IMG/VR virus record: IMGVR_UViG_3300033997_000031
Coordinates: 1-41,642 of that record
DNA from: a virus
Strand: one strand, 5' to 3'
Length of the DNA stretch: 41,642 bases
Shown here piece by piece: positions 1-40,635 of the stretch (its first letter is position 1; every line of letters starts with the position of its first letter). The position numbers and the translations under genes are program-made. Under the pieces are notes generated by a model that saw nothing but the letters and a program-made list of their open reading frames with translations, was not told the DNA's origin and made no database searches.

Positions 1-2
1 AG

Positions 3-86
3 CTGGCAAAACGTTTCCCTGCTTTTGACGGTTATGCTGTAGGCGCTTACGTGGTAGAGCATACTACTAAGGTGGTTTGCTTATGA
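3..86 (+). CDS. C-terminal fragment of an early protein cut by the window edge
   Basis: An open frame enters from the left edge and ends at TGA 84-86, giving 27 residues that include FPAFDGYAVGAYVVEH. It overlaps the next start codon (ATG at 83), the stop-start arrangement seen throughout this early cluster, which supports its being a real gene end. No start codon is visible inside the window. The short gene start at 41564 lies in the same frame if the two ends of the window are joined, so this may be the other half of that gene. Function is unknown. Confidence 0.45.
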   Translation: MAKRFPAFDGYAVGAYVVEHTTKVVCL

Positions 87-211
87 TTATCAAGTGTACT
101 TTTGAACAAGTTCCTGCGCTATGTGCCGGGTTAGTTAAGCAAGGCGTTGAGTTTACATGCGCTGAAACTTCAGGTGATTTCTGGTTAATAACCCTGACGG
201 GAGGTTACTGA
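83..211 (+). CDS. Small early protein, 42 aa
   Basis: ATG at 83 overlaps the preceding stop and has a purine-rich ribosome site (AAGGTGG, 69-75) upstream. The 42-residue product starts MIIKCTFEQVPAL and ends DFWLITLTGGY. Short proteins with this FEQ...VPAL...WLITL pattern are, from memory, common in early regions of enterobacterial phages, but no function is known to me. It is followed two bases later by the next gene, so it is part of a tight early operon. Confidence 0.6.
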   Translation: MIIKCTFEQVPALCAGLVKQGVEFTCAETSGDFWLITLTGGY

Positions 212-212
212 T

Positions 213-476
213 ATGACATTCGCACCAACCACTGCTTACATAGTGGACGTAACTACAGCGGATAAACTGGACCTGATGGATGCGCTTATTGTGGTGGAGG
301 GTATCCTAACCGTGTGTGATGGTGGCGTTTACCGTGAGGACAACGCTTACAGCCAAGTACACATCGAGGCACTAAATGCTGTGTGGTCGCTGGCGCAACT
401 GGATGAGTTGCTGTACAGCTTAAACTATGACGTGGTGGGTATTGTTGTGCAGGAGGGTGTACATAATGAAGCGTAA
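213..476 (+). CDS. Hypothetical early protein, 87 aa
   Basis: The gene begins two bases after the previous stop, with GGGAGG just upstream, and overlaps the next start by 11 bases. The product is acidic and fairly hydrophobic and has no motif I recognise. It contains no cysteine cluster, signal peptide or clear membrane span. Position in the early block suggests host take-over or an accessory role, which is inference only. Confidence 0.65.
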   Translation: MTFAPTTAYIVDVTTADKLDLMDALIVVEGILTVCDGGVYREDNAYSQVHIEALNAVWSLAQLDELLYSLNYDVVGIVVQEGVHNEA

Positions 477-732
477 TTACAACGGCGTTACTAAAGGTAA
501 GGTAATCCCGCTCACAGAAGTAAAGCCGGGTATGGTGTTCCGTATTGTATCGGATAAATTGCTGCCTGTTGTAGGTTGGTTGTTCTGGTGCAATGGTGAC
601 GGTGTATTCTGTACAGGTTGTGAGCGCACCAAGCAAATACCTAAGCAGGGTTGGTCTGGGCACGACCACTGGAAAGACGGTACACACAATATGGCGATGG
701 TTGTTAATAGCTTTGATAAGCGTGCTATCTAA
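466..732 (+). CDS. Hypothetical early protein, 88 aa
   Basis: I chose ATG 466 over an upstream in-frame ATG at 427, because AGGAGG (451-456) is correctly spaced from 466 and the longer version would lie deep in the preceding gene. The product is basic. It has two aromatic and cysteine-containing stretches (VGWLFWCNGDGVFCTGC) with three cysteines, but no complete zinc motif. Function not recognised. Confidence 0.65.
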   Translation: MKRNYNGVTKGKVIPLTEVKPGMVFRIVSDKLLPVVGWLFWCNGDGVFCTGCERTKQIPKQGWSGHDHWKDGTHNMAMVVNSFDKRAI

Positions 733-742
733 TACCAGTAAT

Positions 743-782
743 TAACTAGATGGCTTTCAAGTAGAGCCATCCGTGATAGTTA
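743..782 (+). other. Two-part hairpin between early genes (possible RNase III site)
   Basis: TAACTA-GATGGCT (743-755) can pair with AGCCATC (765-771) and, past a five-base bulge, TAGTTA (777-782). The 9-base loop and lack of a following T run argue against an intrinsic terminator. Bulged stems between early genes are typical RNase III processing sites in T7, so that is the working guess. Confidence 0.45.
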
Positions 783-804
783 CCCTATAGCAAAGGAGCT
801 GAGT

Positions 805-1197
805 ATGTCTTATGTAGAATCAACTGTGGATTTAGGTGCTGATGTTATCGACGTGCGGGATATCATTAGCCGAGTACAAGAGCTGCGCGATGAGCGGGAT
901 TCCGAGGAGGAATTGCCTGATGATGACGCTGCTGAATTGGATATGCTCGAAGGTATCCTGTCTGAGCTTGCTGGTTGTGGTGGCGATGAGGAATTTGACG
1001 GGGACTGGTATCCTGTGACGTTGGTATGTGCTGAGTACTTCCAAGAGTACGCCCAGAACCTAGCTGAAGAGTGCGGGTTAGTAGATACCAGTACAAGCTG
1101 GCCTATGAACTGCATCGACTGGGAACAAGCGGCACGTGAACTACAGATGGATTACAGCCACATCCTAATCCATGGCTTTACGTACTGGTATCGTTGA
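805..1197 (+). CDS. Acidic early protein, 130 aa, possible antirestriction (ArdA-like) type
   Basis: AAGGAG at 792-797 sits correctly before ATG 805. The N-terminal half is extremely acidic (ESTVDLGADVIDVRDI, then repeated D/E runs). The C-terminal part carries DWYPVTLV, YFQEYAQNLAEECG, WPMNCIDWEQAARELQ and a final TYWYR. That C-terminal pattern is shared by a family of small phage and plasmid proteins often labelled antirestriction or ArdA-like. The acidic charge fits DNA mimicry, but ArdA activity is only an inference. It could equally be an unrelated acidic host-interaction protein. Confidence 0.6.
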   Translation: MSYVESTVDLGADVIDVRDIISRVQELRDERDSEEELPDDDAAELDMLEGILSELAGCGGDEEFDGDWYPVTLVCAEYFQEYAQNLAEECGLVDTSTSWPMNCIDWEQAARELQMDYSHILIHGFTYWYR

Positions 1198-1225
1198 GGC
1201 TGCACTCGCAGCTAAGGATTAATGT

Positions 1226-1630
1226 GTGTACCTGATGTATTACTCAGAAGATGGGCGGCTTATTACCGATGAGCCGCTACCTAGTACAGTTAAGGTTATG
1301 ACTCTACCGGAGTTCGTGCAACGTGCGAATTCCTTTGGGCGTTTGCGTGGTGCTAAGTACTGGGAACTGCACTGCGATGGACTGCGTATTATTAGTAAAC
1401 AGGAGATACCACTTATGCCCGCTCTATTGGATGCTGGTATGTACAACGTCGTAGCTCACGGTCGGTTCCGTGGTACAGGTCAACCACAGCAGATACCACG
1501 CCGTACATATATGCCCGCTGAGATGGCCGCACCTTACGGTATTGTAGAGTCAGACCTATATGAACTGGAACAGCGTGTAACTGCTATGTACCGCGACGAA
1601 ATCAAGGATGCACAAGATGAGAATCCATAA
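1226..1630 (+). CDS. Hypothetical early protein, 134 aa, GTG start
   Basis: The GTG at 1226 has AAGGA (1214-1218) at a normal distance. An in-frame ATG at 1235 would be too far from it, so GTG is preferred. The product starts with an aromatic stretch (YLMYYSEDG) and has a charged tail; no domain is recognised. Its 3' end overlaps the next small gene by 14 bases. Confidence 0.65.
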   Translation: MYLMYYSEDGRLITDEPLPSTVKVMTLPEFVQRANSFGRLRGAKYWELHCDGLRIISKQEIPLMPALLDAGMYNVVAHGRFRGTGQPQQIPRRTYMPAEMAAPYGIVESDLYELEQRVTAMYRDEIKDAQDENP

Positions 1631-1772
1631 AGAGGCAACGCAGCTTAGAATACAGCGCCGCAAGGAAGCTGAAGAGGCGTTAGAGCAACAGCGTCGAGAT
1701 GCAGCGCAGAAGCTCGGTATTAGTTACGAGTCCTATATGGCTCGTTTTATCCATCTGAAAGCAGGGTATTGA
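1617..1772 (+). CDS. Small basic helical protein, 51 aa
   Basis: ATG 1617 lies within the end of the previous gene and has AAGGA at 1604-1608. The product is mostly a charged helix rich in R, E, Q and A (QRRKEAEEALEQQRRDAAQK), probably a short coiled coil, ending FIHLKAGY. The start of the next gene is two bases past its stop. No function is recognised. Confidence 0.6.
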   Translation: MRIHKEATQLRIQRRKEAEEALEQQRRDAAQKLGISYESYMARFIHLKAGY

Positions 1773-1773
1773 T

Positions 1774-2364
1774 ATGACTGCACAAGTTAAATATAAACTC
1801 GGGGAACGTGAAGCTAACGGGCTGTGCCGTGTTATTGCTGTGGAGGCGTTCTCCAATGTATCGGTGGGGGATGTTGGTGGGTACATAGAGTCAGAGCAAA
1901 ATCTCGCACATACTGGTAATGCTTGGGTGTACGGGGATGCTCGGGTGTACGAGGATGCTCGGGTGTCCGGAAATGCTCAGGTGTACGGGGATGCTCGGGT
2001 GTCCGGAAATGCTCAGGTGTACGGGGATGCTCGGGTGTCCGGAAATGCTCAGGTGTCCGGAAATGCTCAGGTGTGCGGAAATGCTTGGGTGTACTGGGAT
2101 GCTCGGGTGTCCGGAAATGCTCGGGTGTACGGGGATGCTTGGGTGTCCTCTGTGTGTACTGTGACACCTAAAGTAATTACAGGGTTACTGTATACCCTCA
2201 CCATAACAGACAAACACCTACGGGCAGGGTGTCAAGTTCATACCTACCAAGAGTGGCGTACTAAAACAGAGCGCGAGGTACTAGCTATGGACGGTAAAGC
2301 TGCATTGGTGTTCTACAAGGAAACACTCATCCCACTAATGGATGTTCTTAAGTTGGGGGTTTAG
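1774..2364 (+). CDS. Hexapeptide-repeat beta-helix protein, 196 aa (YdcK-like)
   Basis: After an N-terminal lead (KYKLGEREANGLCRVIAVEAF, then GGYIESEQNLAHTGNAWVY), residues 48-125 are thirteen six-residue repeats of the type GNA-x-V-x / GDARV-x. Such repeats fold as a left-handed parallel beta-helix. The C-terminal part (GLLYTLTITDKHLRAGCQVH, then EW) is the conserved tail of this phage family, which resembles E. coli YdcK at the N-terminus. Function is unknown; proposals include binding or scaffold roles. The DNA repeats are nearly exact, so copy number may change in frame. Confidence 0.75.
   Translation: MTAQVKYKLGEREANGLCRVIAVEAFSNVSVGDVGGYIESEQNLAHTGNAWVYGDARVYEDARVSGNAQVYGDARVSGNAQVYGDARVSGNAQVSGNAQVCGNAWVYWDARVSGNARVYGDAWVSSVCTVTPKVITGLLYTLTITDKHLRAGCQVHTYQEWRTKTEREVLAMDGKAALVFYKETLIPLMDVLKLGV
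1915..2148 (+). repeat. Tandem 18-bp coding repeats (13 units)
   Basis: Thirteen imperfect copies of an 18-bp unit (of the type GGGTGTACGGGGATGCTC) encode the hexapeptides of the beta-helix protein. Several adjacent pairs form a near-exact 36-bp higher-order unit that alternates ACGGGG and CCGGAA variants. As 18 is a multiple of three and the unit has no stop in several frames, long false reading frames appear on both strands here. Confidence 0.9.
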
Positions 2365-2365
2365 T

Positions 2366-2686
2366 ATGTTCGATTTACTGGATTTATACATATGGATAAC
2401 TTGGGTTTGTGTAGGGTGTGTTATTGGTATCTACTTTGGGTACTGGCTGCGCAAACGGGACGAGGCTGACGGTGTGGTGTCAGCCTTAAAGACTGCATTA
2501 GATGAACGGCGTGTACCCGAAGCATTACGTCAGCAGGTGCTGGTTAGTTCCCCTATCACACAAATACTAACGTTGGCACATTGGAAACTGAAGCATAGTT
2601 CACGACATACACAAACAGTTAAACCAGAGGATTACAAACGCTGCCGTAGTATAGCCTCTAGGATAATGCTTATTAAGCCGTTGTAG
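2366..2686 (+). CDS. Small membrane protein, 106 aa
   Basis: ATG 2366 directly follows the previous TAG. An in-frame ATG at 2342 inside the previous gene is less likely. Residues about 2-27 form a clear hydrophobic span (FDLLDLYIWITWVCVGCVIG, then IYFGYW) followed by a positive RKR stop-transfer. The remaining 75 residues are polar and basic and should face the cytoplasm. No catalytic motif is visible. An early inner-membrane protein of unknown role. Confidence 0.65.
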   Translation: MFDLLDLYIWITWVCVGCVIGIYFGYWLRKRDEADGVVSALKTALDERRVPEALRQQVLVSSPITQILTLAHWKLKHSSRHTQTVKPEDYKRCRSIASRIMLIKPL

Positions 2687-2751
2687 TAACATGTGGTAAC
2701 TTCGTTTAGTGAGCCCCGTAATATGCCCAGATATAACAACAGGACTGGACT

Positions 2752-3177
2752 ATGACAGACCGAATTAATCCTAAGAGTACGAGAGTTTGGCCCGGACTAG
2801 AGAACGCTGTCCGAGCTATCCTTTGGGGCAGCGTTGCAGGGGATGCTTATCCTGTGCAGTTCTGGAATCCGCAGGATAAAGAGAAGAATGTACCTTTAGT
2901 AGTAGCGAACGGTATCAACCGCCTAGTGCATGTAGGGTACTACAACCACGGTACAGGGCAGCTAGAACCGCTTGGGCCGAAGCAAGTTACACGGTCTGCA
3001 CTTGCAGGCTGTAAATACTCGGACTTCAGTCAAGCGCTTTTGAATACATCGTTCTCTGAAGTAGGAACAAAGCATGGTGTACTGGTTTGGTATGATGACG
3101 ATTACCTGACCAAGGCTTACGCACCATTAGATGCAGTGTACTACGCTGTATCTCATGTGTTACTGAATAAGAAGTAA
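2752..3177 (+). CDS. Hypothetical protein, 141 aa
   Basis: AGGA (2741-2744) precedes ATG 2752. The soluble product is rich in aromatic residues (VQFWNPQD, VGYYNHGTGQ, VLVWYDDDY) and ends in lysines. I do not recognise the family. It stands alone between two short gaps, followed by the conserved leader of the next gene. Confidence 0.65.
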   Translation: MTDRINPKSTRVWPGLENAVRAILWGSVAGDAYPVQFWNPQDKEKNVPLVVANGINRLVHVGYYNHGTGQLEPLGPKQVTRSALAGCKYSDFSQALLNTSFSEVGTKHGVLVWYDDDYLTKAYAPLDAVYYAVSHVLLNKK

Positions 3178-3189
3178 CTCTTAACTTAA

Positions 3190-3215
3190 AGTACAAACCA
3201 CAACCAAGTAAGGAA
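3190..3215 (+). promoter_or_regulatory. Conserved 26-nt leader, copy 1
   Basis: This segment matches 10464-10489 at 24 of 26 bases (hand alignment), including the identical core ACAACCAAGTAAGGAA. It ends with the ribosome site of the gene starting at 3221. Both downstream genes look strongly translated, judging by preferred codons, so the leader may be a translation enhancer or a processing site. Confidence 0.7.
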
Positions 3216-3220
3216 ATGTA

Positions 3221-3946
3221 ATGAAATCATCTGCTGCTGTTATTGCCTCTAAATCCAAAATGGAACAGCGTCTGGAATTCGTGAAAGCGGAACTGGCTGT
3301 AGCCCGTGAGCGTGAAGTATTCCATGACGGTCAGGTGTATACCCTCTCTCTCGGTAAGCCGGGGGAGAAGGAAGAAGTAGAGGGTGCTCTGCTGGGTCAG
3401 TTCACCAATGATAAGGGTATGCTGAAGCTGCGCTTCCAAGTAGGCTCAGGTATGGATATGCGCATCGTAGATGCCGCTCCGACCACTGTAGTGCGCACCG
3501 TTGAGCCTATCTACGATGAAGAAGGTAAGGAAATCAAGATTCGCTCTAGCGGTATCCTGATTAGCCTCATCAAGAAGATTGAAGACCGTCTGGCGAACTT
3601 CGAGCAGGACCTGCAAGATGCACTGGCCCGCGAGGCTCTGATTGTTGGTGACGTCTACACCATCAAGGTAGGTCGCGGTGAGACCCGCCGTGAAATCCAA
3701 GCCGTGTTGTATGCTCAAGAGCAGAACGAGAAGGGTACTCGTGTACGCTTCTTTGCTGGGGAAGGCTTCGGTGCTGAATTCTTCGATGGTACTCCGGCTA
3801 TGGTAGTTACTAAGGGTGTGGCTGAGGAAGACCCTGAGTTCGATGAAGCTACTGCTGATGCTGCTGAAGCAGAAAAGGAAGTTGCTGAGTTGGAGCAGGC
3901 TGCTGCTCTGGAAGCAGAAGCAGAGTCTAACGCTGCTGCTGAGTAA
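3221..3946 (+). CDS. Internally duplicated protein with acidic Ala/Glu tail, 241 aa
   Basis: Residues about 14-94 and 120-200 are two copies of one domain, shifted by about 105 residues. Matching pairs include QRL/DRL, GQVYTL/GDVYTI, NDKG-x-x-KLRF/NEKG-x-x-VRF and P-x-x-VV near each end. Each begins with a charged helix and continues into a predicted beta-rich part. The tail (residues 201-241) is almost all A and E. Codon choice (CTG, CGT, GGT) suggests high expression, and the 5' leader is shared with the gene at 10495. Family and function are unknown; a nucleic-acid or host-protein binding role would fit, but this is a guess. Confidence 0.75.
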   Translation: MKSSAAVIASKSKMEQRLEFVKAELAVAREREVFHDGQVYTLSLGKPGEKEEVEGALLGQFTNDKGMLKLRFQVGSGMDMRIVDAAPTTVVRTVEPIYDEEGKEIKIRSSGILISLIKKIEDRLANFEQDLQDALAREALIVGDVYTIKVGRGETRREIQAVLYAQEQNEKGTRVRFFAGEGFGAEFFDGTPAMVVTKGVAEEDPEFDEATADAAEAEKEVAELEQAAALEAEAESNAAAE

Positions 3947-3983
3947 TACTAAGGGAGCCTGACCCTGCAACAGGCAACCTTCA

Positions 3984-4007
3984 GTGTACTGGTTTCGGCC
4001 AGTACAC
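3984..4007 (+). other. Perfect 9-bp hairpin after the early gene block
   Basis: GTGTACTGG (3984-3992), loop TTTCGG, CCAGTACAC (3999-4007). There is no T run afterwards, so it is a weak candidate for an intrinsic terminator. An RNA-processing or transcript-stabilising structure is equally possible. Confidence 0.5.
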
Positions 4008-4008
4008 A

Positions 4009-4114
4009 ACTGTAGTAGCTAATTAATTAGACAAGGACGTATGTGACTACGGCCCTGCATACACCCAGGTAGTGGGTGCTTGTCGAATAGATTACCCATG
4101 TTAGCTACTACAGT
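4009..4114 (+). ncRNA. Candidate structured RNA with three-way junction and possible pseudoknot
   Basis: A perfect 14-bp helix closes the element: ACTGTAGTAGCTAA (4009-4022) with TTAGCTACTACAGT (4101-4114). Inside it, GACAAG (4030-4035) pairs with CTTGTC (4079-4084) and encloses two hairpins: GTATG/CATAC (4039-4043/4058-4062) and ACCCA/TGGGT (4063-4067/4073-4077). The loop of the last hairpin (GGTA, 4068-4071) can also pair with TACC at 4093-4096, forming a pseudoknot. No open frame covers the segment. It is not a tRNA. Structure is inferred from complementarity only. Confidence 0.5.
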
Positions 4115-4217
4115 TATGTCTGCTGAAGGACACAACAACCTAACCTTACTTAATTAACTTCACTAGGTACTGCTTAGGCTTGCTCTTTGAATAGCTTATA
4201 CACAAACACGTAATTGG

Positions 4218-4339
4218 TAGCCTTATGGATAAGGCTATCTAGTACATGGCTACGCAACCTAACATTAACAATCATCCCGAATCAAAACGGAACACAGTTA
4301 TACGTTATTTTGAGTTCAACGTAACCATGTACTAGATAG
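4218..4339 (+). promoter_or_regulatory. Structured 5' leader of the homing endonuclease gene
   Basis: A perfect hairpin TAGCCTTA-TGGA-TAAGGCTA (4218-4237) abuts a 15-bp inverted repeat, CTATCTAGTACATGG (4235-4249) with CCATGTACTAGATAG (4325-4339). An inner stem TACGTT/AACGTA lies between its arms. Hairpin and long stem share three bases (4235-4237), so they partly compete. The long stem ends just before the ribosome site (AGGAG, 4343-4347). Upstream, TTAGGC (about 4170) and TATACA, 17 bases apart, are a weak sigma70 candidate. Confidence 0.45.
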
Positions 4340-4352
4340 AACAGGAGAGTTT

Positions 4353-5069
4353 ATGTTGCAGAGTACAATACACAGTGTGGACTTGCAGATGTTATCTGCA
4401 TATGAGTTCAATAAGTTACCCGCCCGAGTGCGTACAGAGTTATTGGCGAGTGGTAAGTTGGGTGTTGCGGTACGGCGGCGTAGTCGGCTGGTGAGTGGTG
4501 TGGGTACAAACGATGCTGGGTATTCTGTATCAGCTTACTTACAAGGCATCTTGGTTATGTGTCCTGCATATACTGCATGGCAACATATGCTAACACGTTG
4601 CTACTCCGGTAAGTACCATAAGCAATATCCTACATATATTGGATGTTCCGTGTGCGTTGAGTGGTTGTCATTTACAACCTTTAGGCTCTGGTGGTTGGCA
4701 AACCACGTCGACGGGTGGGAACTGGATAAGGATTTGTTGGTAGTTGGTAACATGGTGTATAGTCCACAGACCTGTGTATTTGTACCTAAATGGCTGAATA
4801 GTTTTACAACTAATAGTAAATCCATTAGAGGTGCTCTGCCAATAGGAGTCCGTTTACATTCACGTAGTAAGGTTAATCCCTACCACGCTCAGTGTAGTAA
4901 TGGTTCTGGTTCCCAGATACATCTGGGTTGTTACCCAACACCAGAAGCAGCACATGCCGCTTGGCTAAAGTATAAACTTGGTATGGTGGATTCTATGCAG
5001 ACACAACTCGAAGGTATCCTTCCCGGACTCACTGAGAAGGTGCGCACAAAGATTATGTCTTTGAGGTAG
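4353..5069 (+). CDS. HNH-type homing endonuclease with AP2-like C-terminal domain, 238 aa
   Basis: The middle of the protein shows the usual phage pattern of this group: a W-x-x-M-x-x-RCY helix (YTAWQHMLTRCYSG), then P-x-Y-x-G followed by V-x-EWLSF, then WELDKDLLVVGN, YSPQTCVFVP and a helix ending LNSF. The C-terminal region (PYHAQCSNGSGSQIHLGCYP, TPEAAHAAWLKYK) resembles the AP2/ERF-like DNA-binding unit found in phage HNH enzymes. Such genes are selfish and cut related genomes lacking them. It stands free between early and replication genes. AGGAG lies before ATG 4353. An intron association was considered but no interrupted gene is visible. Confidence 0.75.
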   Translation: MLQSTIHSVDLQMLSAYEFNKLPARVRTELLASGKLGVAVRRRSRLVSGVGTNDAGYSVSAYLQGILVMCPAYTAWQHMLTRCYSGKYHKQYPTYIGCSVCVEWLSFTTFRLWWLANHVDGWELDKDLLVVGNMVYSPQTCVFVPKWLNSFTTNSKSIRGALPIGVRLHSRSKVNPYHAQCSNGSGSQIHLGCYPTPEAAHAAWLKYKLGMVDSMQTQLEGILPGLTEKVRTKIMSLR

Positions 5070-5074
5070 ATACC

Positions 5075-5875
5075 ATGCTGCATACTGATGAATGGTTAAA
5101 GGATGCCAAGCGGCTACCAATAGGCCGTTCGGCTCGTGTGTATCATGGGTCGGAGTGTCGTCCTAATCTAGTTGTAAAGAATCTCCCAGACCGCTATACG
5201 GCGTATTGTCATAGATGTCATGAAGGTGGGGTTGTTATTAAGGATTATGTGCGGACAGCTTCTACATACAGTGCCGTACAGGATAACTCAATAACACCAC
5301 CGCATGACGCTGTACCATTATTCCTACGCGGGGTGCCTAATCCTAAAATTCCGTGGCAGAAGTTAGTCGCGTTCTTGCATAGTAAGTCTATGTCCGTGGA
5401 TTACTTAAAGGGTTACAACCCCAAGTACTCCGCTAGTGCAGAGAGATTACTACTTGATATGCCTGACCAGACAGTAGGGCGTTCCTTGCGCTCGGCGTCT
5501 ACAGCTAAATGGTTAACGTACCGTTCAGCCGTGTCTTACGTTAGAGCGAGCGCCTTAGCCGTTGAGGGTCGTAGGTTATTCGTCACAGAGGATTGTTTCT
5601 CTGCTATTAAAGCAGCGCATTCATTACCTCAGACGTTTGTACCTACGGCCCTCATGGGCACGGTGGCTTATAATGATTTCCTGAGATTAGCTTTAAGTTC
5701 TGCTGGTGTTGTGCTTTGTCTTGATAATGACAATGCAGGATTATCAGCAGCGCCTAAGATACAACGCGCACTCCGGCTACTAGATGTACCGTGTAAGACT
5801 GTGTACCCTAGTGCCGGAGCTGACCCTAAGAACGAACCGCTAGAGTGGTTTCGTAATGTAGTGGAGAGCGACTAA
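5075..5875 (+). CDS. DNA primase, 266 aa (separate from helicase)
   Basis: The protein makes RNA primers for the lagging strand. The N-terminus has a zinc-type cluster (H24, C28, then C45-H-R-C48), followed by a linker. The TOPRIM catalytic core has E172 in LFVTEDCFSA and the D217-N-D219-N-A-G motif in VLCLDNDNAG, which bind metal. In T7 the primase is fused to the helicase. Here the frame stops with TAA at 5873-5875 and the helicase starts at the very next base. That split is the phiKMV-like arrangement. Length fits the split family. Confidence 0.88.
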   Translation: MLHTDEWLKDAKRLPIGRSARVYHGSECRPNLVVKNLPDRYTAYCHRCHEGGVVIKDYVRTASTYSAVQDNSITPPHDAVPLFLRGVPNPKIPWQKLVAFLHSKSMSVDYLKGYNPKYSASAERLLLDMPDQTVGRSLRSASTAKWLTYRSAVSYVRASALAVEGRRLFVTEDCFSAIKAAHSLPQTFVPTALMGTVAYNDFLRLALSSAGVVLCLDNDNAGLSAAPKIQRALRLLDVPCKTVYPSAGADPKNEPLEWFRNVVESD

Positions 5876-7165
5876 TTGGACTTAACACTTCTACAGGCTT
5901 TATCCCACCGGGATAGATATAAAGCCTTAAAGAATGCCGTACCGAATGACATGTTTGACAGTAGTACTGTTGGGCTGTTGAATTGGTATGGCATTTTTTT
6001 CGACTCCTATCCAGATAGGGAACAGGTAGACCCTGATGCTTTATTTACACTCATGAAGCTCAGGGCGAACTTAGATGCAGACCAAGCCGCTGTGACGGGT
6101 AAGGTTATTGACCAGCTCAAGAAGCCAGTAGCTAAAGACCTTATACAAGGTTTGGTGTCTCAGCTTGAAGAGGTGGCCTATGTGGGCAAGGTTGGTAGTC
6201 TCCTAGCGAAGTACAACAACGGAGAGGATGTAGACGTTACCTTTGAGCTTCAGCAACTCACTGCTGAGACTCGTAGGCGTATGCAGACTGTTGGTGCTGC
6301 GCAATGGGCCAGTGCTGACGTACTGGAGTACATCGAGAAGACTGAGGATGAATCAGGCTTTAAGCTATGGTTCCTGCCTGCACTTGCAAGCAGTCTCAGG
6401 GGCTTACGTCCGGGAGATAACATTGCATTAGCTGCACCTACCGATAAGGGTAAGACTTCCTTCCTGATGAACATGGCTGCGGATATAGCGCACCAAGCAA
6501 AGGATACCATCCTGTACAAGGATAGACCTTTGCTATTCTTGGTGAACGAGGGACAAGCTGAAGTACTTACCCCGCGGATGTACCAGACTGTTGCTCGGGT
6601 GAACCGTACAAAACTCAAGGAGCTGGCCGTTAGCGGTGAGTTATATGACTTGTACATTAAGCACGTTGGTAGGCGTGATGCTATACGTTTTGTGAACGTG
6701 CACGGTCAGAGTATAGCACAGATAGCTCGTATCATTGAGGCGCACAATCCGTACTGTGTAATCACTGATATGACGGGACGTATACGCGCTACTGGTAATA
6801 CTGCTGGTATGAACGATATATCCCAGTTGGAATCCGTGTGGAACAGTATGCGGGAAATGGCTGCTATATATGACTTTCTACATATAGGTACTGTACAGGT
6901 ATCTGCGGAAGGGTTCGATATGTTGTATCCTCCGCTGTCCGCTATGCAGAACAGTAAGACAGGTATACAGACTACTCTGGACTTGGCTTTGTTCATGGGG
7001 GCTATTAATTCTGAGAACATGGAATTTATCCGTGGTATATCCAGCCCCAAGAATAAATGTGCTAGTACCGGAGTGAAAGGTAAGAATCAATTTGAAGTCC
7101 TGTTTGACCCTGAGATTAACATGTGGTCCGAAATGAACCCAACGTCAGTACCACCAACTAGATGA
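5876..7165 (+). CDS. Replicative DNA helicase (DnaB-like), 429 aa, TTG start
   Basis: This is the hexameric 5'-3' helicase of the replication fork. Walker A is APTDKGKTS (residues 187-195), with VNEGQAE and NPYCVITDMTGRI following as the H1a and Walker B type regions. QVSAEG near the end is the sensor-type strand. The TTG at 5876 directly follows the primase TAA, with GGAGAG (5862-5867) upstream. The reading MDLTLLQALSHRDRY matches the usual N-terminus of split helicases, while the first in-frame ATG would cut into it. Translation is probably coupled to the primase. Confidence 0.88.
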   Translation: MDLTLLQALSHRDRYKALKNAVPNDMFDSSTVGLLNWYGIFFDSYPDREQVDPDALFTLMKLRANLDADQAAVTGKVIDQLKKPVAKDLIQGLVSQLEEVAYVGKVGSLLAKYNNGEDVDVTFELQQLTAETRRRMQTVGAAQWASADVLEYIEKTEDESGFKLWFLPALASSLRGLRPGDNIALAAPTDKGKTSFLMNMAADIAHQAKDTILYKDRPLLFLVNEGQAEVLTPRMYQTVARVNRTKLKELAVSGELYDLYIKHVGRRDAIRFVNVHGQSIAQIARIIEAHNPYCVITDMTGRIRATGNTAGMNDISQLESVWNSMREMAAIYDFLHIGTVQVSAEGFDMLYPPLSAMQNSKTGIQTTLDLALFMGAINSENMEFIRGISSPKNKCASTGVKGKNQFEVLFDPEINMWSEMNPTSVPPTR

Positions 7166-10453: not shown

Positions 10454-10463
10454 TTCTATTAGA

Positions 10464-10489
10464 AGTACAACCTACAACCAAGTAAGGAA
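10464..10489 (+). promoter_or_regulatory. Conserved 26-nt leader, copy 2
   Basis: Second copy of the leader at 3190-3215 (24 of 26 bases identical by hand alignment), again ending in the AAGGAA ribosome site of the downstream gene at 10495. The two genes show no clear protein similarity, so the shared element is likely regulatory. Confidence 0.7.
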
Positions 10490-10494
10490 TTAAT

Positions 10495-11478: not shown

Positions 11479-11501
11479 CAGTAACTGGAAGTACTTTAAT
11501 C

Positions 11502-11526
11502 GAAGGCTCTGCGGAGTCTTCTATTT
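11502..11526 (+). terminator. Hairpin terminator after the Pro/Val/Ala-tail gene
   Basis: GAAGGCTC-TGCG-GAGTCTTC (11502-11521, 8 bp with one G-U pair) followed by TATTT. A second hairpin, AGAGCA-CTTA-TGCTCT (11527-11542), follows at once and sits just before the next gene's ribosome site. Confidence 0.6.
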
Positions 11527-11558
11527 AGAGCACTTATGCTCTAGTCATGGAGAATATT

Positions 11559-15796: not shown

Positions 15797-18292
15797 ATGC
15801 TGCCTTATAGCACACAAGCGGAATACGAAGCGCTACTAAAAGAACAGGTACGTATTGAGGAGCAGGCATCACATGATGCCTTACTCAAAGGTTTGCAGCA
15901 GGTACGTGAGGCTGTAGAGCAGGGTCGTGTATCGGATATCCCTATTGGTCGTAGACTGATTGCCTCTGCCTTTGAGGTACTTCTTCCTATCATGAAGGAA
16001 CTCTATGAATCACGCGCGCGTGGTACAGCAGGGAAATACCAATCCTTAATCCGCCGTGTAGATGTAGAGATTGTTACCGCTATTGTACTCCGGCAGATGC
16101 TGAATGCTGCTATCGCTGGCTACCATGACCCAGTGAAGGCTCGTATCTCCGATGTACTACGGGGTATCGGTTGGGCTGTGGAAATGGAAGCTCTGGTAGC
16201 AGACCTCAAGGACTTCGCTCCAGCGTACACAGAGAAGACCCTGAAGTACTTGGACGATGGCTTCACCTCTGCACCGCAGCATCGCCGTAGAACCCTTATG
16301 AGCGCATCAAAGAACACTGGTGTGGACTTCGAGCCGTGGACTTCCGACGAGAAGATTGCTGTCGGGCGCACCCTGTGCAGCACAGCCTTCGAAACGGGCC
16401 TATTTCGCTGGGTAGAGGTTCAGGTAGGTAAGGGTACACCTACGTATTACCTCAGTGTCTCTGAGGCCGTACAGGAGCACCTAGAGGCTCTGGCGAGCGA
16501 CCCCCAGATGCACAACGCTTGGGTGTACCCGCCCTGTGTTATCCCACCACAGCCATGGACTTCGTTCTGGGAAGGTGGCTACCACACACTGGGACTCACT
16601 AAGCGCTGTACCCTGATGCACATCCGGGGCCGTACCCGGCAACAGCGTCAGTGGATTCTAGGGCACCTCAAGGCAGACACGGCAGCCCCTGCTAGGGCCG
16701 CTGCGAACGCCGCACAGAGCGTTCCATACCGTGTGAATACTAGGGTACTGGAAGTGCTAGGAGATGCGTTAGCGGCAGGCATAGGGCTCTTGGGACTACC
16801 TCGTACCCTGTCGATGCCGAAGCCTCAGTTTCCTCACATGGAAGACTGGACTAAGGACAATGCCAGTACTGAAGAACTAGAAGCCTTTCAAGCATGGAAG
16901 GATAAGATGAGTACTTGGTATGAGTTCGAGAAAAAGCGTAAGGGGATGCACAGTGGAATTACTGGAAAGCTTCGTGAGCTACGTAAGTACTCTGAGTACA
17001 AGTGTCTTTATTTTCCTACTTTCTTTGATTGGCGTGGTCGTCTGTATTTCAGAAGTACTCTTAACCCACAGTCTGCGGATGCTATTAAAGGATGCCTTGA
17101 CCTTGCAGAGGGTAGAGCTCTTGGCGAAAGAGGTTTGTACTGGCTTCGTGTGCATATTGCTAATTGCTGTGGCTTTGATAAGCATGACAATGATATTAGA
17201 GAGCAGTGGACAAAAGACAATTGGAGAAGCATTGAGGAGTTCCTTGATGACCCGATGAACATTCAAGCGCCAGAACCTGATACAGCGTTCTCTCTATTGC
17301 AAGCTGGTTGGGCTTTGCAAGAAGCACTGGATTTACCTAATCCAGCAGATTACATCTGCCATGTACCTGTTGCACAGGATGCTACTTGCTCTGGACTACA
17401 GCACTTCAGCGCTATGTTCAAAGACCCTGTAGGTGCTCTGTACACTAACCTAGTAGATAACGGTACTGATAAGAAGTCCGATATTTACATGAAGGTAGCT
17501 GAGGAAGCTCAACGTACTTTCTGTAGCTTGGAAGAGGACGAAGTAATTCTGGATTACTGGAAGGATAAGCCCATCAGCCGTAGCATGGCAAAGCGCCCTG
17601 TTATGACCTACGTTTATGGGAGCACCTTGAAGAGTACTATGGATTACGTTGTAGTCGATATGCTTAGTTCCGGGTACGCACCAGTGTTAGATTCTGATGG
17701 TACTGTGTTGTATAGCGCACATAAGCTATCGGTAGGTATTGGTAAGGCTCTGCGCTTAGGTGTAGAGGAAACTGTACCTTCTGCTGCTGCTGGTATGCGG
17801 TACTTACAGCGCCTGTGCCGTTGGGCTGTGGATGCGGAAGGTAAAGGTAAGGAACTTTCTTGGATTAGTCCAGTAGGTATTCCTGTAGTGAACTGGGCTG
17901 AGGGCTACATCGAGAAGCGTGTGAATATCCGCTCTATGGGTATCTACCATGTAACAGTGAGTATGCGCTCTGGTGAGTACGATTGCCGGAAAGCTACCTC
18001 TGCTGTTGCCCCGAACTTCATCCATAGTCTGGATGGTGCACACCTGTGTAAGGTAATCAATGCTGCTGATTGTAGTATTGTGCCTATCCACGACTCCTTT
18101 GCTACACACCCTGATAAGGTGGACGAGCTTCGGGATGTACTGGTGCAGCAGTTCTACAGTATGTACAAAGATGATGTTCTAGCGCTTATTGATACCGGAG
18201 TACAGATTCGGGAAGATAGGGAACTAGAACGTCCTGTGTTTGGTAACTTGGATATCAGTGCTGTACTTACAGCTCGATTCCCATTCTGCTAA
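15797..18292 (+). CDS. Single-subunit DNA-directed RNA polymerase, T7-type, 831 aa
   Basis: It transcribes the phage virion genes. Motif A is VAQDATCSGLQHFSAMFKDP (D528), motif B is RSMAKRPVMTYVYGS (K599, Y607; the K-to-Y distance of 8 equals T7 K631/Y639), and motif C is PIHDSFATHP (H765, D766). The N-terminal third is a promoter and transcript-binding domain. Size is slightly below T7 (883). GGAG (15787-15790) precedes ATG 15797. Its place before the virion genes instead of in the early block is the phiKMV-like order. Confidence 0.95.
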   Translation: MLPYSTQAEYEALLKEQVRIEEQASHDALLKGLQQVREAVEQGRVSDIPIGRRLIASAFEVLLPIMKELYESRARGTAGKYQSLIRRVDVEIVTAIVLRQMLNAAIAGYHDPVKARISDVLRGIGWAVEMEALVADLKDFAPAYTEKTLKYLDDGFTSAPQHRRRTLMSASKNTGVDFEPWTSDEKIAVGRTLCSTAFETGLFRWVEVQVGKGTPTYYLSVSEAVQEHLEALASDPQMHNAWVYPPCVIPPQPWTSFWEGGYHTLGLTKRCTLMHIRGRTRQQRQWILGHLKADTAAPARAAANAAQSVPYRVNTRVLEVLGDALAAGIGLLGLPRTLSMPKPQFPHMEDWTKDNASTEELEAFQAWKDKMSTWYEFEKKRKGMHSGITGKLRELRKYSEYKCLYFPTFFDWRGRLYFRSTLNPQSADAIKGCLDLAEGRALGERGLYWLRVHIANCCGFDKHDNDIREQWTKDNWRSIEEFLDDPMNIQAPEPDTAFSLLQAGWALQEALDLPNPADYICHVPVAQDATCSGLQHFSAMFKDPVGALYTNLVDNGTDKKSDIYMKVAEEAQRTFCSLEEDEVILDYWKDKPISRSMAKRPVMTYVYGSTLKSTMDYVVVDMLSSGYAPVLDSDGTVLYSAHKLSVGIGKALRLGVEETVPSAAAGMRYLQRLCRWAVDAEGKGKELSWISPVGIPVVNWAEGYIEKRVNIRSMGIYHVTVSMRSGEYDCRKATSAVAPNFIHSLDGAHLCKVINAADCSIVPIHDSFATHPDKVDELRDVLVQQFYSMYKDDVLALIDTGVQIREDRELERPVFGNLDISAVLTARFPFC

Positions 18293-18477: not shown

Positions 18478-18501
18478 GTACTAACTAGTATTAACTTTTT
18501 A

Positions 18502-18525
18502 TAACGACTCACGTACTATGCATGA
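18502..18525 (+). promoter_or_regulatory. Putative phage RNA polymerase promoter, copy 1
   Basis: This 24-base segment matches 18705-18728 at 22 positions, with the identical core CACGTACTATGCATGA. The 5' part (ACGACTCAC) equals the recognition part of the T7 promoter. Both copies lie right after the RNA polymerase gene and its terminator, in a non-coding stretch before the virion genes, which is where such promoters are expected. No other copy was found by eye. Confidence 0.65.
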
Positions 18526-18704
18526 AATGCGTAGCCGCGCAGCGGAGATACTAGAGATTACTAGAAGTTATAGAGTATAGTAATAGTATCTATATAGATT
18601 ACTAGTATATAACTATAGATATAATAGATAACTCTATATGTACATTAGTATTACTATTAGATGTACCTAAGATAATCTATGCACTATATAAGTATAACCT
18701 AGTT
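18526..18704 (+). other. AT-rich non-coding stretch between the two putative promoters
   Basis: About 180 bases of short TATA, CTAG and ATAG-rich runs without a supported gene. It contains the small hairpin CCGC-GCA-GCGG near 18531 and many short inverted A/T words. Similar sequence occurs at about 39,557-39,690. It may ease strand opening for transcription or replication, but no origin motif is identifiable. Confidence 0.5.
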
Positions 18705-18728
18705 TAACGATGCACGTACTATGCATGA
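18705..18728 (+). promoter_or_regulatory. Putative phage RNA polymerase promoter, copy 2
   Basis: Second copy (22 of 24 bases identical to 18502-18525; differences only at positions 7 and 8). It lies about 90 bases upstream of the first gene of the virion block. Confidence 0.65.
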
Positions 18729-38995: not shown

Positions 38996-39556
38996 TTGTA
39001 CTCATGCGAGGGTGTTCCCTCCCTTGACCTCCTGAGACTTCCCCCATGACCACCCTCTCTGGGCTGCACCACGGCTCACAGGGTGGCCCTCTGTCTCTTG
39101 GGCTGCTCTCTGCCACCTCCGCCAGACCTCCTACAACGCCCTACAGCGCACCAGGGCTCTACAGCGCTATGGTAGCCTATGGATGGGCCTCTATTGCTCT
39201 CTGAGAGGGCTCTGGCTCGCTCTGGCTGCGTCCTATAGCGCTGGGTACTGATATCACTGTCTGGTCTGACCTAGGAGGGGAGAGGGCTGGCTCTGGTCTA
39301 TCCCACGATGTACCTAGAGATACCTAGTACTTATCTCAGTATCCCAGAGGTTCCCACGCCTTCCGGGCTACTATCATCACTGAGCGGGATTGGTATCAGT
39401 ACATAGAGTTCTCTGGGTAGCATAGGTATCTAGGGATGGCCCTGGTTGCTAGGGAGGCGTATGGGCGCTTACCTCTTTTCCTCTAACCACCTCGTTCCAT
39501 CACAGGGTTCCTAGTTACTTACCTCTTTTCCACTATGCTCTACAGTGGCTCGGGTA
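38996..39556 (+). other. Pyrimidine- and GC-rich region without genes
   Basis: About 560 bases with a strong excess of C and T on the + strand (runs such as CCTCCTGAGACTTCCCCC), richer in GC than the rest, and stop codons in all frames. AGCGC words recur (TACAGCGCA, TACAGCGCT, TATAGCGCT). A 14-base direct repeat CTTACCTCTTTTCC occurs at 39468-39481 and 39518-39531. Likely near the genome terminus, so packaging or terminal-repeat function is possible. Confidence 0.6.
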
Positions 39557-39866
39557 ATCCTCTGGTAGTTTCCTAGATATCTCTATGTGTATCTACAGTA
39601 CTCTATGATTACCTCTAGATAATCCTTATGCATCTCTATGTATTACTATATGTATCTATAGATATACCTAGAGCTATCTATAGAGTTCTCTAAGTACCTC
39701 TCTGTATCCCTCTTCCGCTCAACCTGCTTCGCAGTTCGCTTCAGAGACTAACTAAAGATTACGCAAGCTCCTTATGCTCACGCTTAGTGCTTACGCTTAC
39801 GCATAATACGTACATCAGTAAACAGAGGTCTTACTTGATTACTCTATGAAGATACTTAAGAACTAA
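39557..39866 (+). other. AT-rich then repeat-rich region without genes
   Basis: Bases 39557-39690 are AT-rich with CTAG, TATAG and CTCTATG words, similar to 18526-18704. Next come CTGC-TTC-GCAG (about 39730) and clustered short repeats (CTTAGTGCTTACGCTTACGC, about 39782). No supported gene. The short clustered repeats recall, without sequence similarity, the repeats beside T7 terminal redundancy. Confidence 0.45.
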
Positions 39867-40237: not shown

Positions 40238-40267
40238 TTGACAAGCGTTAAGAGTTAGCACTAAGAT
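40238..40267 (+). promoter_or_regulatory. Early sigma70 promoter
   Basis: Perfect -35 TTGACA (40238-40243), 18-base spacer, -10 TAAGAT (40262-40267, four of six consensus bases). It points to the early genes and directly precedes a structured untranslated leader. This is the best host promoter in the window. Confidence 0.7.
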
Positions 40268-40375
40268 ACAGCCAAGCAATACAACGTAGTAAAGCGCCTC
40301 TGGTTCTGATTCCCTTATAGGGTTAAGACGACACCATACAAAGCGCTAACGAATACCAAAGGCAATATGCCGAAC

Positions 40376-40420
40376 GTTCTTTAACAATTTGGTAAGTCCT
40401 TGTCCCTTGTACTCTAAGGG
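40376..40420 (+). promoter_or_regulatory. rRNA-type boxA with downstream hairpin (nut-like antitermination site)
   Basis: GTTCTTTAACAATTTGG (40376-40392) nearly equals the boxA of enterobacterial rRNA operons (TGCTCTTTAACA). A hairpin CCCTT-GTACTCT-AAGGG follows at 40404-40420, like boxB of a lambda nut site. It lies in the early leader, so NusB/NusE-type factors may protect early RNA from Rho. The next leader bases include the 12-base palindrome TACAGCGCTGTA (40429-40440) and a GNRA hairpin ATGTC-GGGA-GACAT (40474-40487). Confidence 0.65.
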
Positions 40421-40581
40421 TTAAGCTCTACAGCGCTGTAAAGGCTGTAGCTCTGGAAGGTGTAGCGGTTCCGATGTCGGGAGACATTACAAGACCGTGT
40501 GACAGACAGACAGGCTTAAACGATAACAGTACAACACAAGGCGCAATCTCTGTACTCGCACGACAAAGCGGTACAGGGTTT

Positions 40582-40612
40582 GTTTAAAGGTTCTAATGTA
40601 GAGCCTTTAAAC
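40582..40612 (+). other. Long hairpin in early leader (possible RNase III site)
   Basis: GTTTAAAGGTTCTA (40582-40595), loop ATG, TAGAGCCTTTAAAC (40599-40612): 14 bp with a single G-U pair. It ends just before the first leader gene. No T run follows. T7 early RNA is processed at comparable hairpins. Confidence 0.55.
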
Positions 40613-40635
40613 AATCCACAATGATTGAGGTTCTT

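Follow-up and report, generated by a model that had tools for sequence, protein, structure and literature searches.

Evidence for a structured intercistronic region, shared by a virus genome and Aeromonas phage PS, that is likely to act as RNA

The virus record IMGVR_UViG_3300033997_000031 contains, between its early and its replication genes, a non-coding region of 406 nt (3947–4352, + strand), which raises the question of whether this DNA specifies a structure kept by selection and, if so, whether the structure acts as RNA or as DNA, and on which strand. An earlier note, made from the sequence alone, had suggested at 4009–4114 a possible new structured phage RNA with four nested helices and a pseudoknot. 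Below, the window means the whole stretch of DNA that was analysed (41,642 bases).

Setting and parts of the region

Ten + strand ORFs of the window were scanned for protein matches, and a primase, a DnaB-type helicase, a ligase, a polymerase and a T7-type RNA polymerase (15797–18292) were recognized among them. Judged from these matches and from the nearest relative, the window is a T7-like phage with a gene order of the phiKMV type, its own RNA polymerase gene being located after the replication genes. The nearest named relative is Aeromonas phage PS (MT259468; Autographiviridae in its record), which is also the only phage record matching region 3947–4352 and in which all 49 annotated CDS are on the + strand. 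A passage in PMC9145550 describes this phage as uncharacterised and as yet unclassified.

The 5' neighbour of the region is ORF 3221–3946, the last early gene, of unknown function, and the 3' neighbour is ORF 4353–5069, an HNH endonuclease gene, followed by the primase gene (5075–5875). With these two ORFs on the + strand, the earlier placement of segment 4009–4114 in non-coding DNA, between the early and replication blocks, was borne out; a mechanically called minus-strand ORF (3446–4009, 187 aa) touches the first base of the segment. The HNH gene stands between the structured region and the primase gene, whereas in PS the primase gene follows the region directly and an HNH-related stretch (64% over 332 aligned positions) is located at 4355–4679, after the helicase gene. 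Identity to PS continues into the first letters of the HNH ORF, ATGTTGCA. Because of this continuity and of the counterpart found elsewhere in PS, the HNH gene appears to be a mobile gene inserted at the junction of leader and start codon.

The region consists of the following parts:

3947–4352, + strand: whole structured non-coding region (ORF table, fold and PS alignment)
3957–3975, + strand: small hairpin GCCTG/CAGGC directly after the upstream stop codon (pair probability 0.98; pairs the same in PS)
3984–4007, + strand: hairpin C, a perfect 9-bp stem (pair probability 0.98–1.00; stem the same in PS)
4004–4022, + strand: 5' arm of helix B, its first 4 nt overlapping hairpin C
4023–4100, + strand: interior of helix B, to which the earlier note assigned an inner stem, two hairpins and a pseudoknot; unsupported as structure
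4101–4119, + strand: 3' arm of helix B (6 double compensatory changes relative to PS in 19 pairs)
4115–4243, + strand: conserved core (120/129 letters the same in PS)
4218–4237, + strand: hairpin D, 8 bp with a 4-nt loop, its 3' end overlapping the start of helix A (pair probabilities, PS comparison)
4235–4254, + strand: 5' arm of helix A
4255–4319, + strand: loop of helix A (identity to PS 32/33 in the left half, 25/32 in the right half)
4320–4339, + strand: 3' arm of helix A (5 double compensatory changes relative to PS in 20 pairs)

Hairpin C is the flanking perfect hairpin of the earlier note; its loop differs in PS, where a possible tenth (wobble) pair is absent, and hairpin D differs there by a single U-A to U-G change. 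The conserved core is about half unpaired in the predicted ensemble (mean unpaired probability 0.44–0.53), includes a G-poor stretch and holds one of two copies of CAACCTAAC (4136), the other being at 4255. Helix A stops 3 nt upstream of AGGAG, the ribosome-binding site at 4343–4347.

Several further observations were made elsewhere in the window. The early gene 1774–2364 encodes YdcK-type beta-solenoid repeats, and its comparison with PS gave many shifted matches in the alignment, as expected from internal repeats. The intergenic stretches 3178–3220 and 10454–10494 have AAGTACAAACCACAACCAAGTAAGGAA / AAGTACAACCTACAACCAAGTAAGGAA in common ahead of genes, a shared leader motif, and the short intergenic stretch 11489–11542 has the same letters in PS at 54 of 54 positions. 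Two long stretches, 39205–39866 (containing TCTATAGATA-like words) and 40280–40620 (closed by a palindrome at 40580–40614), are devoid of a large + strand ORF and are possibly the terminal region and the early promoter region.

Folding and matched changes

The fold of the region was more stable than those of shuffled sequences on both strands, in the window as well as in PS (z of about −4.4 to −4.5 on the + strand of 3947–4352 and −6.8 to −7.5 on its − strand). Raw stability alone does not single the region out, since lower-energy pieces of 120 nt are found in coding sequence: the one starting at 3901 was third lowest, behind those at 1921 and 5701. Two perfect inverted repeats of 15 bp (loop ≤150 nt) are present in the window and in none of 200 mononucleotide shuffles; the remaining perfect inverted repeats of the window (arms ≥10, loops 3–150) are at most 11 bp long. 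One of them, 4008–4022/4101–4115, lies where the earlier note had put its closing stem; it can be extended outward to 4004/4119 with 18 of 19 pairs formed (helix B), and its 15 pairs have probabilities of 0.80–1.00 in the context 3947–4352. The second repeat (4235–4249/4325–4339), about 120 nt downstream, belongs to helix A.

Segment 4009–4114 itself folds at −37.6 kcal/mol (z −3.7, none of 200 shuffles equally stable), so the comparison with shuffled controls upheld its stability, and no Rfam family matched it. Only the closing stem of the four nested helices stood, since 4023–4100 alone, holding the inner 6-bp stem and the two hairpins, is at the level of shuffled sequence on the + strand (z −0.5, 88/300 shuffles at least as stable; − strand, z −1.9, 15/300 as stable). 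Pair probabilities inside helix B were 0.45–0.56 for the inner stem, 0.22–0.24 for hairpin 1 and 0.76–0.79 for hairpin 2, and the nested structure, as interpreted from its wording, has −30.2 kcal/mol, i.e. 7.4 above the minimum of −37.6. The pseudoknot between a hairpin loop and the strand between the stems found no support: the longest such pairing is 4 bp, and 17.5% of shuffles do as well. For an alternative, a 5-bp pairing of one hairpin loop with the other, the proportion was 3.3%. A four-helix pseudoknotted RNA limited to 4009–4114 is therefore not supported, its interior having shuffled-level stability and a different sequence in PS. What had been noticed at 4009–4114 is one domain of a larger region of about 400 nt.

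Helices A and B were compared between the window and PS pair by pair, counted inward without gaps from the outermost pair. Of the 19 pairs of helix B, 10 are unchanged, 6 differ on both sides with Watson-Crick pairing kept, 1 has turned into a wobble and 2 lack pairing in one phage; the corresponding numbers for helix A (20 pairs) are 11, 5, 1 and 3. Compensation in the homologue, on which the earlier proposal depended, thus largely holds for the closing stem, while the interior has no convincing alignment. Taken together, the two helices carry 11 double changes, all of them preserving Watson-Crick pairs and none breaking a pair (by chance, a double change retains a standard pair in 4/9 cases), and 5 pairs unpaired in one phage; with two sequences only, these matched changes could come from few events. 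In the unedited MAFFT alignment, which has gaps at the inner end of helix B, the six helices (58 pairs in all) show 9 double changes and have 97.4% of cells paired, while partners slid by 1–3 columns gave 0–1 double changes and 23–39%; column shuffles of this alignment carry little meaning with two sequences. The four helices without double changes are uninformative for or against themselves. Since they differ from PS by matched letter pairs, the two long stems are probably real, and the double compensatory changes, together with folding beyond that of shuffles, support a selected structure between the early and replication blocks; compensatory changes in homologues, the mark of a selected base-paired structure, are here found on two sequences only.

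The alignment with PS shows near-identity to about 4011 (after 30 nt found only in PS), then a sharp drop across the element 4009–4114, after which near-identity resumes. Identity, gaps counted, is 291/406 (71.7%) for the whole region, 262/300 (87.3%) outside the element and 29/106 inside it; it amounts to 58/62 just 5' of the element and 120/129 just 3' of it, 5/11 and 4/10 in the distal parts of the helix A arms, and 18/23 at the region end. As the segment boundaries were chosen after the alignment was seen, the stretches of 93–97% overstate the contrast. Four-fold degenerate sites are identical to PS in 2239/3167 cases (70.7%; 47.8–86.3% by gene, given for 16 of 17 genes, one being without a match). 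Judged by this comparison of letters, the region minus the exchanged element is more conserved than silent coding sites, and the whole region is not; the case for constraint consequently depends on dropping the exchanged element and on post hoc stretches.

These numbers bear on the view that the palindromes are unselected by-products of intrastrand template switching or hairpin-guided repair, by which one arm is copied onto the other. In its favour, wobbles are rare in the almost perfect arms (Watson-Crick in 103 of 110 helix cells), helix B has had its tip replaced by a different sequence as though in a single event, and the comparison involves two phages whose whole-region identity is not above that of four-fold sites. 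Such copying would, however, have had to hit two stems at different places and yet leave identity outside the element at 262/300, and the isolated single mismatches in helix A of both phages do not resemble one fresh perfect copy; we consider this origin unlikely.

Strand and transcription signals

If the + strand RNA were under selection, G-U pairs should outnumber A-C oppositions on that strand; the 110 helix cells hold three of each, which is the main weakness of any RNA reading. Fold energies do not point to one strand either, with −145.7 kcal/mol for the − strand and −122.0 for the + strand in the window vs −129.7 and −142.3, respectively, in PS; within 4030–4084 the − strand has z −2.9 (3/300 shuffles) and the + strand z −1.0.

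Candidate transcription signals inside the region were rejected. There is no intrinsic terminator and no T-run on its + strand, the only terminator-like site in 3000–6000 being on the − strand, and none was found in PS 1000–3000. A sigma-70 promoter is likewise absent from the region; one sigma-70-like site was found in window positions 3000–6000, on the − strand within the HNH gene, and none on either strand of PS 1000–3000. Because shared sigma-70-like sites are absent around the region, sense read-through is the obvious transcript. In the left region the best sigma-70-like match is at 40238 (10/12), although such sites are no more frequent there than in shuffles.

A 25-nt motif occurs twice just after the RNA polymerase gene (18501–18525 and 18704–18728), and its copies are possibly promoters of the phage polymerase. 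The pattern was taken from the second copy (18704), so that the evidence is the first copy, with 2 mismatches where 0 matches are expected in shuffles; no other copy was found in the window at up to 3 mismatches. A candidate phage promoter inside the region was rejected, with no core match in 3947–4352.

The absence of strand asymmetry would suit inverted repeats that act as DNA, namely as a replication element (an origin or a single-strand priming signal) upstream of the genes for the DnaG-type primase and the DnaB-type helicase, with arms pairing in single-stranded or extruded DNA, or bound as palindromes, and with protein sites such as CAACCTAAC in the core. Folding of both strands, the two copies of CAACCTAAC, the conservation of non-element letters above four-fold sites and the primase and helicase genes that follow are in line with it. 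An origin of the T7 type would, however, need a phage-polymerase promoter beside an AT-rich stretch, and the candidate promoter motif, whose identity as a promoter is presumed, has its two copies at 18501 and 18704 only; moreover, GC skew keeps its sign around 4 kb (1-kb windows), and an adjoining replication gene proves nothing. A role as DNA is, in our estimate, unlikely.

The better fold of the window's − strand (z −7.5 vs −4.4, and again in 4030–4084) could point to an antisense RNA that ends over the last early gene and is itself the functional molecule. Against this, PS 1000–3000 has no − strand promoter-like site, the single such site in window positions 3000–6000 is within the HNH gene, which has its PS counterpart at another place, and in PS, with its CDS all on +, it is the + strand that is more stable over the whole region, which makes an antisense product improbable. 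The good folding of both strands and the 3:3 ratio of G-U to A-C weaken a reading as RNA; in its favour are the location of the region, where helix A stops 3 nt short of AGGAG, and the lack of a shared − strand promoter-like site. The structure is likely, though not certain, to act as RNA.

An exchangeable tip, relatives and a possible mRNA leader

Inside helix B, PS carries 35 nt in place of the 78 nt of the window, with unrelated sequence. The PS tip contains a motif resembling a tRNA T-arm, GTCGG-TTCGATT-CCGAC (1874–1890), first spotted by eye, post hoc; the strict motif has this single match on both strands of both genomes, with 0.04 expected per shuffled PS genome. Helix B might accordingly offer an exchangeable tip to a host factor, the PS tip perhaps mimicking a T-arm for a tRNA-handling enzyme or as a decoy. 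When the tip was compared with phages, PS itself and 303 further records with short matches were obtained; among the best 20 of the 304, matches other than PS have E of at least 0.6; annotated genes for tRNA-Ala, tRNA-Lys and tRNA-Gly are among them at E 2–7, which is not significant. In the fold of PS 1838–1910, however, the T-arm has a probability of 0.11 vs 0.74–0.84 for a competing hairpin, the motif is missing in the window, and a 24-mer around it had no exact match in the genome contig collection. ARAGORN called no tRNA gene in the window or in PS 1–5151 (under relaxed settings, calls were scattered over the two strands of each phage and were left unused). The four Rfam matches of PS are all well under cut-off, the best being mir-196 (23.3 bits, E 0.0083, cut-off 55.4) and tRNA-Sec (21.3 bits, E 0.097, cut-off 47). 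As the motif was found by eye, a competing hairpin is preferred and no tRNA was called, the likeness is a lead rather than a result, and a role in tRNA mimicry seems very improbable. PS also has a 13-pair outer stem (1753–1765/1959–1971, one wobble, pair probability 1.00); its 5' strand falls within the 30 nt absent from the window, so the global fold is not constant between the two phages.

Relatives beyond PS were sought in several ways. In Rfam release 15 no match was found in the window at the gathering cut-off, nor up to E 10 in 3900–4400. The upstream protein (ORF 3221–3946) gave no further relatives in viral or genome contigs and, among phages, PS only; the primase gave 26 loci in viral contigs (27–33% identity) with no further relative of the region, the polymerase 21 loci, one of them at 90% and too short to reach the region, and the helicase search again no further relatives of the region. 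DNA pattern searches found nothing, bar one that returned three contigs, which were dismissed as chance because PS alone was matched when the region, together with its three neighbours, was compared by blastn with 53 loci; two of these pattern searches were made with PS letters, so that contigs having the window's letters at those positions would escape them. The whole region had no match among plasmids at E 0.1. Against phages, the element alone (E 10) gave two records at E 4, PS not among them, and the conserved core alone gave PS plus two short matches at E 5. The search with covariance models that the earlier note had called for was made for the helix A part; covering 51 sources and 658,044 bases, with overlapping loci of one contig counted twice, it recovered the window and PS, each also on its reverse strand (E 0.006 and 0.1), besides a single hit of E 9.7. 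Within the collections searched, the region is known from two phages.

By protein, 704 phage records match the primase, of which PS, Lolek and Bolek were examined further. Upstream of the primase match, 28 loci (26 viral contigs and phages Lolek and Bolek) were surveyed with mechanically called ORFs of at least 50 aa, many of the loci being close relatives of each other. In 22 of the 27 scorable loci the gap from the last ORF is at most 14 nt; in the other 5 it is 106–230 nt, and perfect inverted repeats longer than 11 bp are absent from the 700 nt upstream of these, where available. Other autographiviruses thus offer a comparable position before the primase, differing in that the gap is mostly short and, where it is longer, free of long perfect repeats.

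The best explanation, held tentatively, is a structured intercistronic mRNA leader of about 400 nt in which duplexes of the RNase III type govern processing or stability. Host RNA polymerase would transcribe a sense RNA from the early region into the replication genes, in which helices B (19 pairs) and A (19–20 pairs), nearly all Watson-Crick and about two helical turns long, would be the RNase III-type elements. Cleavage in or near the duplexes would split the transcript into early and replication mRNA, with a structured 5' end remaining shortly before the ribosome-binding site at 4343; the half-unpaired conserved core between the duplexes would supply sequence-specific contacts, and the duplex tips would be free to change provided that pairing persists. 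The stems, their matched changes relative to one relative, the conserved stretches and the position are direct observations, from which we infer the + RNA as the functional strand and host RNA polymerase as its maker, as well as recognition of the duplexes by a double-strand nuclease or another RNA-binding factor and an effect on the mRNA.

A T7-type RNase III site has a duplex of about two helical turns, and it is one compact irregular hairpin. Helices A and B, with 19–20 pairs in an intercistronic place, have this length, and like the early-gene sites of T7, which belongs to the same broad group, they are stems near a downstream ribosome-binding site; unlike those sites, they are two duplexes with long loops (65 and 78 nt between arms), about 115 nt apart. 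The large structured RNAs GOLLD and ROOL also occur in phages. Such RNAs (PMC12286853) are likewise non-coding and structured with an unclear role; the present region differs in being smaller, in being found in only two phages of the collections searched and in having no Rfam match in 3900–4400 up to E 10. With tRNA-like elements the region has in common the T-arm-like motif in the PS tip, and it differs from them in the lack of a tRNA call, in the absence of the motif from the window and in a favoured fold other than the T-arm.

A bolder reading, to which we give little credence, is a new class of phage leader RNA. Its frame, conserved over about 300 nt, would bear a stem tip that close relatives exchange as a whole (78 nt in the window, 35 nt with a T-arm mimic in PS) and by which different host RNA factors would be engaged or evaded when expression passes from early to replication genes. 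To our knowledge, few structured RNAs of lytic T7-like phages have been described beyond terminators and RNase III sites. The present region, unannotated until now, adds stems kept by matched changes in a lineage with one named member, and should the leader be a switch for RNA processing, it would reveal how phages of this kind, whose own polymerase gene comes after the replication genes, part early from replication mRNA.
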